64,000 nt of DNA from Haladaptatus sp. R4 (GTDB lineage Archaea > Halobacteriota > Halobacteria > Halobacteriales > Haladaptataceae). The DNA lies in assembly GCF_001625445.1 (NCBI RefSeq), contig NZ_LWHG01000021.1, positions 620,001-684,000 on the forward strand. The letters are read 5' to 3'. The translations under genes and the position numbers were made by a program. Position 1 is the first letter of the stretch. Each line of letters opens with the position of its first letter. Under the pieces are notes generated by a model, which was not told the DNA's origin, made no database searches, and saw only the letters and a list, made by a program, of their open reading frames with translations. Positions 19,729 through 21,379 of the stretch are shown here, one piece after another.

Positions 19729-20097
19729 ATGGATTGGCCGAAGGGCGGAGAACGGTGGGAAATAACCCTCCTGATGGTGTTGCTCGTGGTGCAGTTAATT
19801 CTCGAAGGGTACGGAATGGTGACGAACAACGGAACGGCCGGGTTCATCGGCCACCTGGTGTTTTCCACCCTTTGGATCGTCTTCGGTTACGCGGCGTTTC
19901 GCCACTACGGGAGGACCCCGCGGTCGGTGCTTACGGTGACGCTACTGATCGGCGGTGGGTTGCTGAACGGGTACGTTCTCCTCGCCTCGCATCCGATGGT
20001 GGGAGAAGGGGTATCCGAAATTCTGGAGGGGTCAGGAGCCCTGCTGTACGCGTCTCGCCTGCGGGAAACGTCCTCAAAGCCCTTCCAGCGAACGTAG
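19729..20097 (+). CDS. Small membrane protein
   Basis: 122 aa with about four hydrophobic segments (ITLLMVLLVVQLILEGYGMV, FIGHLVFSTLWIVFGYAAF, SVLTVTLLIGGGLLNGYVLL and a weak fourth). It has a short polar tail. Family not recognised. It overlaps the convergent MGMT-like gene by 24 nt. Confidence 0.62.
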   Translation: MDWPKGGERWEITLLMVLLVVQLILEGYGMVTNNGTAGFIGHLVFSTLWIVFGYAAFRHYGRTPRSVLTVTLLIGGGLLNGYVLLASHPMVGEGVSEILEGSGALLYASRLRETSSKPFQRT

Positions 20098-20535
20098 TTT
20101 CTGTTCGACGTCCGGCGGTGCGGCGCTCGGACCGTCGCGGACGCGATGGTCGGGCACCAGAATCGGTGCGGGGTTCGCGTCGAGCGCGGTCCTGACGAGG
20201 TCTAAATCGGCTTCCTCCGTGTGATCGATACCGGAAGTCATCCGGGCGACTGTTTCGACGTTCACCTGGTCGCCGTAGGGGATGTTTCGCACGGCCTCCA
20301 ACACGCCGCGCTGGTCGGTCGGAACGGTCAGTGCGACCTGTACGTCCGAGAAGTCTTCCTCGACACCCTCCAGATACGCCATGATTCGGTCGAGTACGGC
20401 GTGGTCGGGAAGTGCGTCGTCCTCCGCCTCGTTCGGAAACGTCACGCGCAACACGCGCCCGCTGGCGACGCCGACCTGAACGAATCGCTCCAAGTACGGC
20501 GACTCCTGCGCGTAGATTCCGGCAGTCTCGTCCAT
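20074..20535 (-). CDS. MGMT/alkyltransferase-like protein lacking the acceptor cysteine
   Basis: 153 aa. The C-terminal half is the DNA-binding domain of O6-alkylguanine-DNA alkyltransferases: IPYGDQVNVETVARMT (HTH, residues 85-100) and, where active enzymes have PCHRV, PDHRV at residues 128-132. The alkyl-acceptor Cys is therefore Asp129. The normal Asn hinge and Arg finger regions are only partly conserved. It may sense alkylated bases like ATL proteins or have another role. An ORF extends upstream, but the ATG at 20535 is chosen. It is divergent from trpC, 85 nt away. Confidence 0.78.
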   Translation of the reverse strand: MDETAGIYAQESPYLERFVQVGVASGRVLRVTFPNEAEDDALPDHAVLDRIMAYLEGVEEDFSDVQVALTVPTDQRGVLEAVRNIPYGDQVNVETVARMTSGIDHTEEADLDLVRTALDANPAPILVPDHRVRDGPSAAPPDVEQKLRSLEGL

Positions 20536-20587
20536 ACGGACGCGAACGAACCTCACGACCTTCAAGATTCGTCCCCCGGACGCAAGT

Positions 20588-20595
20588 CTTATGTA
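20588..20595 (+). promoter_or_regulatory. TATA-like element of the trp operon
   Basis: CTTATGTA sits 26-33 nt upstream of the trpC ATG at 20621, fitting a leaderless transcript. GTAC occurs twice, at 20593-20596 and 20613-20616, bracketing a CTAG. A symmetric operator is possible but unproven. Confidence 0.45.
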
Positions 20596-20620
20596 CAAAC
20601 TAGTCCGTTGATGTACTACA

Positions 20621-21379
20621 ATGAACGTAGATGGTGCACTCGCACCCGCGGTCGAGTCCATCCTCCGGACCGCTCGGGAGCGGGTACCGGACGAGGAGAC
20701 CGAACGGGTGTCCGTGACTCCCCGTTCGTTTCCGGACGCACTCGCGGCGGCGGCGGACGACGAACGGGTGCCGCTGATCGCGGAGGTAAAGCCGACCAGT
20801 CCGACGACGGAGGGCGAACGAAGCGACGACCCCGTCGAACTGGCCGAAACGATGGTCGAAAACGGGGCCGCCGCCCTGTCGGTGTTGACCGAACCGGACC
20901 ACTTCGGCGGCGATCCGGAAAACCTCCGGCGAATCCGCGAGGCGGTCGACGTTCCCGTCCTCCGCAAGGACTTCATCGTTCGGGAGGAGCAACTGGACGT
21001 CGTGGAGGCCGACCTCGTCCTCCTCATCGTGCGATTCGTTGACGATTTGGCGGGTCTGCTTTCGGCCGCCGAAGAGCGCGGCTTTCAGGTGCTCGTCGAA
21101 GTTCACAGCGGGGAGGAGTTGGCGGAAGCGCTCGACGCCGGTGCGGACATCGTCGGCGTGAACAACCGTGACCTCGCACGACTGGAAGTCGATCTGGACA
21201 CCTTCGAGTCGGTATCGCCCGCGGTGCCGAACGACGTAACCCTCGTGGCCGAAAGCGGCATCACGACGACGGAGGACGCCCGTCGAATGCGGGACGCGGG
21301 CGCGGACGGTCTGCTTGTCGGAAGCGCGATCATGGACGGCGACGTGGCCGAGAACACGCGGAGGTTGGTCAACGCATGA
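20621..21379 (+). CDS. trpC: Indole-3-glycerol-phosphate synthase
   Basis: 252 aa. It forms indoleglycerol phosphate in tryptophan synthesis. TIM-barrel motifs are present: [13 protein letters not shown] near residue 48 (catalytic Lys), [13 protein letters not shown] near residue 87, PVLRKDFIV near residue 110, [14 protein letters not shown] near residue 182, and VAESGITT near residue 208. Its TGA overlaps the ATG of trpB (ATGA), so trpCBA is coupled. Confidence 0.95.

Follow-up and report, generated by a model that had tools for sequence, protein, structure and literature searches.

Haladaptatus sp. R4 encodes a homologue of the O6-alkylguanine-DNA alkyltransferases (AGTs) in which Asp occupies the place of the acceptor Cys, and which is probably a repurposed pseudo-AGT, inherited vertically from an archaeal Cys-AGT, that neither repairs nor flags O6-alkylguanine. 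The gene is a minus-strand open reading frame of the window, the 64,000-nucleotide stretch of contig NZ_LWHG01000021.1 (positions 620,001 to 684,000) that was analyzed, and its product, hereafter the Asp protein, has PDHRV where AGTs have PCHRV. The features of the gene, numbered from the first letter of the window, are as follows:

20074-20535, minus strand: coding sequence, stop codon included, for the 153-aa Asp-type homologue of AGTs
20332-20535, minus strand: N-terminal AGT domain, about residues 1-68; the structural model aligns to 4zyd_A from residue 5
20140-20154, minus strand: PDHRV motif, residues 128-132, read from the translation
20149-20151, minus strand: codon of Asp129, at the acceptor Cys position (Asp 206, Ser 4, Cys 2, Thr 1 among 213 proteins)

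Pfam PF01035 matched residues 75-132 of the window protein at 29.5 bits (cut-off, 27), so that the AGT domain is recognized, and NCBIfam TIGR00589 (ogt) scored 21.7 bits, under its curated cut-off of 46.4. An AlphaFold model built from a 42-row alignment had a mean pLDDT of 96.7 and a pTM of 0.89; its best Foldseek match was 8aes_A (E 4.9e-8), and VIA-align superposed it on 4zyd_A over 139 residues at 1.9 A (Z 17.6), indicating the two-domain AGT fold. The translation, the PF01035 match, and the fold match to full-length AGTs together confirmed what the initial annotation had proposed, an AGT homologue with Asp for the acceptor Cys. Its corollary, that Cys-based suicidal alkyl transfer is impossible, was borne out as well, and the loss of the Cys function is secure. 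The closest named relatives of the window protein are from Haladaptatus (82-88% identity). Across 21 pairs among seven sequences of the Haladaptatus group, dN/dS of the Asp gene was 0.035-0.147 (NG86), with dS of 0.28-1.24 and several pairs near saturation. The Asp gene is thus under purifying selection.

Distribution of the Asp protein was analyzed across the class Halobacteria. With the protein as query (1e-8), one homologue was found in each of the 292 genomes, so that all 77 genera were represented; no plasmid copies of the Asp gene were found among 72,556 PLSDB records. The acceptor residue was read in 213 of the 292 genomes (80 plus 133 more, a choice that leaned to genomes with listed coordinates), and it was Asp in 206, Ser in four (L062, L067, L068, and L076), Cys in two (L074 and L075), and Thr in one (L043). 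Thr was also found in three Halovenus proteins (L160-L162) among 27 named loci, which partly repeat genomes counted in the 213. The expectation that Asp would be conserved in other haloarchaea therefore held. A local mutation, which Cys-bearing close relatives would have implied, was not found: the close relatives carry Asp, and Cys occurs only in two deep-branching genomes of the 213. That the substitution is a local mutation, a pseudogene, or a sequencing artifact of one Haladaptatus genome is accordingly refuted by the class-wide conservation and the purifying selection, and its probability is negligible. Two sequence variants were noted along the way. Halarchaeum rubridurum (L158) has PDHCV, with Cys at the motif Arg, and L239 has this motif too and is probably from the same genome; L284 is without the active-site Glu.

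Descent was examined with a tree of 89 rows (67 from the class, 20 outgroup AGTs, and the two paralogues of the window genome), a count reached after the named rows and 13 near-duplicates from the class had been set aside. The class proteins formed a clade with support of 100/99. Its deepest branch comprised L074-L076 (Cys, Cys, and Ser; 98/85), and the remaining proteins formed a crown clade (100/97) with 60 Asp, three Ser, and one Thr. At least five acceptor-state changes were required on this tree. Gene order supplied a second line of evidence. The AGT gene of L074-L076 lies directly behind a TBP gene (PF00352), and the order TBP-AGT-LonB was found at three of the 20 outgroup loci (L119, L123, and L127) and at one of the three deep class loci (L075), with L120 and L132 having TBP only. 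A LonB or CPBP/Rce1-like protease gene lies 3' of the gene at 113 of the 211 class loci with room for it (assigned by Pfam on examples, mostly with ~1.5 kb scanned). Since this gene order is common to the Asp gene and to Cys-AGTs, it indicates vertical descent, with the Asp gene as the positional descendant of a Cys-AGT.

Residues with known roles in AGTs were tallied in the 206 Asp proteins and in two control groups, 25 L004-type Cys-AGTs from the same class and 20 outgroup AGTs. The human residue numbers used here (Y114, G131, and E172) were assigned by alignment to family motifs, and they agree with the HMMER alignments. The corresponding positions in the window are as follows:

20257-20259, minus strand: codon of Val93, aligned with the base-flipping Tyr (human Y114); none of the 206 Asp proteins has Tyr here
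20191-20193, minus strand: codon of Arg115, aligned with the recognition-helix Gly (human G131); 183 of the 206 Asp proteins have Arg here
20173-20274, minus strand: helix-turn-helix region, residues 88-121, acidic in Asp proteins by mean net charge
20086-20139, minus strand: active-site loop, shortened, and last helix; motif Arg and Glu are separated by 19 residues instead of 23, with Gly-Gly-Tyr/Phe deleted
20083-20085, minus strand: codon of Glu151, aligned with the Glu of the catalytic network (human E172), which 212 of 213 proteins carry

Most of the features with which AGTs hold and read the damaged base are missing from the Asp proteins. The column of the base-flipping Tyr holds Val in 180, Leu in 15, and other residues in the rest, as against Tyr in all 25 class and all 20 outgroup controls, and the recognition-helix column that is mostly Arg in the Asp proteins is Gly in every member of both control groups. 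Both loop columns (Gly and Tyr) are gapped in 206 of 206, and motif Arg and Glu lie 19 residues apart in 200 Asp proteins and 18 apart in six, compared with 23 in the three deep members. The Lys column of the last helix is occupied by Glu (143), Ala (32), Arg (17), or other residues. The mean net charge of the helix-turn-helix region is -6.1 in the 206 Asp proteins, versus -1.5 in the 25 class Cys-AGTs and +3.4 in the 20 outgroup AGTs; at molar salt, DNA binding is poorly predicted by net charge. What is kept is the Asn hinge (206 of 206), His (206 of 206), Arg (205 of 206), and Glu (205 of 206), and across all 213 class proteins Asn is found in 213, His in 213, and Glu in 212.

The class Cys-AGTs (n = 25) retain Tyr in 25, the helix Ala in 24, Gly in 25, Cys in 25, the loop Gly in 24, the loop Tyr/Phe in 25, Lys in 25, and Glu in 25, and the outgroup AGTs (n = 20) retain all these features, including the Arg finger. 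The losses are not explained by adaptation to salt, since Tyr, the loop, and the helix Gly are all present in Cys-AGTs from the same class. The deep members L074-L076 keep Tyr, the loop Tyr/Phe, and Lys, and they already have Arg in the helix Gly column and an acidic helix-turn-helix region (-6.3). The Gly-to-Arg change and the acidic helix therefore preceded the loss of Cys, and they are no proof of lost function. The order of changes can be read from the tree, on which the helix changes come first and the losses of Cys, Tyr, and loop follow.

The Arg finger was considered separately. Its column is not conserved in the 206 Asp proteins (Ile 57, Glu 29, and Arg 29 among others) and is Asp in the window protein. 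In haloarchaeal Cys-AGTs (L002/L004, L005, L181-L183, and L314-L333; n = 25), this column holds Val in 18, Ile in five, Arg in one, and Gln in one, with the other lesion-reading residues kept. Loss of the Arg finger was rejected as evidence against AGT or ATL function, as 23 of 25 class Cys-AGTs carry Val or Ile there.

Against this background the Asp protein can be compared with the known members of the family. With AGT/MGMT/Ogt proteins (PF01035), including the archaeal structures 4zyd of S. solfataricus and 1wrj of S. tokodaii, it has in common the two-domain fold, Asn hinge, His, Arg, and Glu; unlike them, it is without the acceptor Cys, flipping Tyr, Gly-Gly-Tyr loop, and helix Gly, and it scores below the TIGR00589 cut-off. 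The two Cys-AGTs of the window genome, L004 and L005, belong to the same family and are present in the same cell, but they keep Cys, Tyr, loop, Gly, and Lys and do not group in the tree with the class clade to which the Asp protein belongs. Alkyltransferase-like proteins (ATLs) are one-domain proteins with mostly Trp at the acceptor position, which keep the flipping Tyr and the Arg finger and from which the N-terminal domain and the Asn hinge are missing (PMC10779285, section 3.5). The Asp protein resembles ATLs (S. pombe Atl1, E. coli ATL, and V. parahaemolyticus 2kif) in the missing acceptor Cys and the P-x-H-R-V context, and it differs from them in having two domains, Asp instead of Trp, no Tyr, an unconserved Arg-finger column, and an Asn hinge. 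Of the ATL hallmarks, the Asp proteins thus show the replaced Cys, and depart from the pattern in the Tyr, the Arg finger, the retained N-terminal domain, and the retained Asn.

The initial annotation had suggested a distinct Asp class of ATLs, which would bind O6-alkylguanine without repairing it and pass the lesion to UvrABC. The loss of Cys in the crown clade with retention of the PF01035 domain is consistent with this, as is the scarcity of other AGTs in the class, which would make another way of handling O6-alkylguanine useful. The window genome has two further PF01035 proteins above cut-off, L004 and L005, both with Cys. The L004-type Cys-AGT is patchy, however, being found in 102 of 292 genomes and absent from 190 (L004 query, 1e-8; the raw count of 106 of 292 included G021, G183, G218, and G286, removed as the Asp-gene locus itself). 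Among 97 class genomes, PF01035 matched at least two proteins in 33, one in 63, and none in G052, although more divergent AGTs may escape these thresholds. The G052 copy was found with the window protein as query despite having no PF01035 match, and in G021 the sole PF01035 match is to one of the Cys-bearing copies. Against the suggestion stand the absence of Tyr from all 206 Asp proteins, the deletion of the loop in every one of them, the N-terminal domain, and the universal Asn hinge; the unconserved Arg-finger column differs from ATLs as well but is not diagnostic. The best ATL structure, 3gva_A of S. pombe, aligned over only 74 residues, covering model residues 70-153 (Z 8.6), compared with 139 for the AGT. 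A distinct ATL class is therefore not supported. The Asp protein is likely not an ATL in the accepted sense, an ATL-like function is made less likely by the residue pattern, and we regard the damage-flagging role as doubtful.

The near-invariant His and Glu would also be compatible with a working active site. Asp129 could act as a nucleophile that takes the alkyl group as an ester, to be hydrolyzed by His130 and Glu151, a scheme comparable to ester hydrolysis in haloalkane dehalogenases. The four residues found at position 129 (Asp, Ser, Thr, and Cys) are all potential nucleophiles, and the His (213 of 213) and Glu (212 of 213) needed for hydrolysis are conserved. However, the base-holding loop and Tyr are gone, and residue 129 starts a short helix in the AlphaFold model, where Asp, Ser, and Thr are ordinary helix-capping residues. 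About five acceptor changes on the tree also make the residue pattern weak evidence. We consider such a turnover enzyme very improbable, and equally so a multiple-turnover haloarchaeal enzyme that would form and hydrolyze the ester with a new substrate, possibly a small molecule.

The explanation that we favor, a repurposed pseudo-AGT, starts from an archaeal Cys-AGT whose acceptor Cys changed to Asp and later, in a few lines, to Ser or Thr. The machinery for holding and reading an alkylated base, namely the flipping Tyr, the Gly-Gly-Tyr loop, and the small recognition-helix residues, was mostly lost as well, with the two-domain fold and a polar core (Asn121, a polar residue at 129, His130, Arg131, and Glu151) being kept. 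The distribution, the residue changes, the descent, and the purifying selection are shown by the analysis, and the new role is what we infer. The reshaped pocket may bind another ligand or a protein partner, and Asp129 would then serve as a polar or helix-capping residue and not as an alkyl acceptor.

The gene neighborhood pointed to a further possibility. The Asp gene is divergently arranged with trpC:

20536-20620, no strand assigned: divergent intergenic region between the Asp gene and trpC
20621-21379, plus strand: trpC (indole-3-glycerol phosphate synthase; PF00218, 242.6 bits), the head-to-head neighbor

This head-to-head arrangement was found in 154 of 212 scored genomes, the window included (L238 had no room), and trpC itself is present in 292 of 292 class genomes. 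In the window, two TGTACA boxes with a spacing of about 20 bp (20589-20616) lie over the TATA and start region of the trpC promoter; we take TGTACA to be the TrpY box. Such a pair of TGTACA-like boxes is widespread among crown haloarchaea. Of 65 intergenic stretches, 57 contained TGTACA in their last 120 bp. By eye, an exact TGTACA was also present upstream of trpC in 10 of 12 crown genomes in which the two genes are apart (all except L170 and L173), and it was absent upstream of trpC in the three deep-branching genomes G021, G218, and G286. The perfect box pair occurs once in the window's own genome, which has five one-mismatch sites versus two matches for a reversed control pattern. In H. 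salinarum, trpCBA is induced without aromatic amino acids (PMC4162585).

These observations could suggest that the Asp protein acts on the divergent trpCBA operon as its regulator or as a sensor: head-to-head linkage is frequent, and the boxes are kept in most genomes with the genes apart, missing from the three deep genomes, and paired perfectly only once in the genome. However, the 3' side of the gene is conserved too (LonB or CPBP protease genes), which lowers this reading, as block synteny may explain the linkage. The protein is kept in 58 of 212 genomes in which it is unlinked from trpC, 52 of them with Asp, and by eye no box pair was found at the promoters of unlinked copies of the gene (there is one box in L068). 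An acidic helix-turn-helix region also speaks against this role, and likelier readers of the boxes exist, as Methanothermobacter TrpY binds TRP boxes and TrpY homologues are present in haloarchaea (PMC6737238). A haloarchaeal TrpY is possibly the reader of the TGTACA pair. A trpCBA regulator is hence an improbable role for the Asp protein, and the trp link is a lead rather than its function. Two further comparisons were set aside. Conservation on the 5' and 3' sides (561 of 595 versus 204 of 595 pairs) was left unused, since the 35 representatives had been picked as linked and the 5' count is biased. Coupling between Asp and trp linkage was not convincing: the two genes are apart in six of the seven genomes without Asp, yet they are also apart in 52 genomes with Asp, and the rows share ancestry.

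In the open-access literature, we found no paper containing PDHRV or HVO_0786 and recognized no study of the Asp protein by titles or abstracts; HVO_0786, OE1467R, OE1468R, and VNG0304 are locus tags that we assumed. The portions consulted of PMC2816208, PMC10470531, PMC10117719, and PMC7690668 make no mention of it.

General family models file the Asp protein under DNA alkylation repair, and in haloarchaea it is almost certainly not a Cys alkyltransferase. The 63 of 97 genomes with a single PF01035 match raise the question of how O6-alkylguanine is handled there. As the descendant of a suicide protein, universally retained in the class without its chemistry and its lesion-reading parts, the Asp protein would represent a clean case of repurposing.
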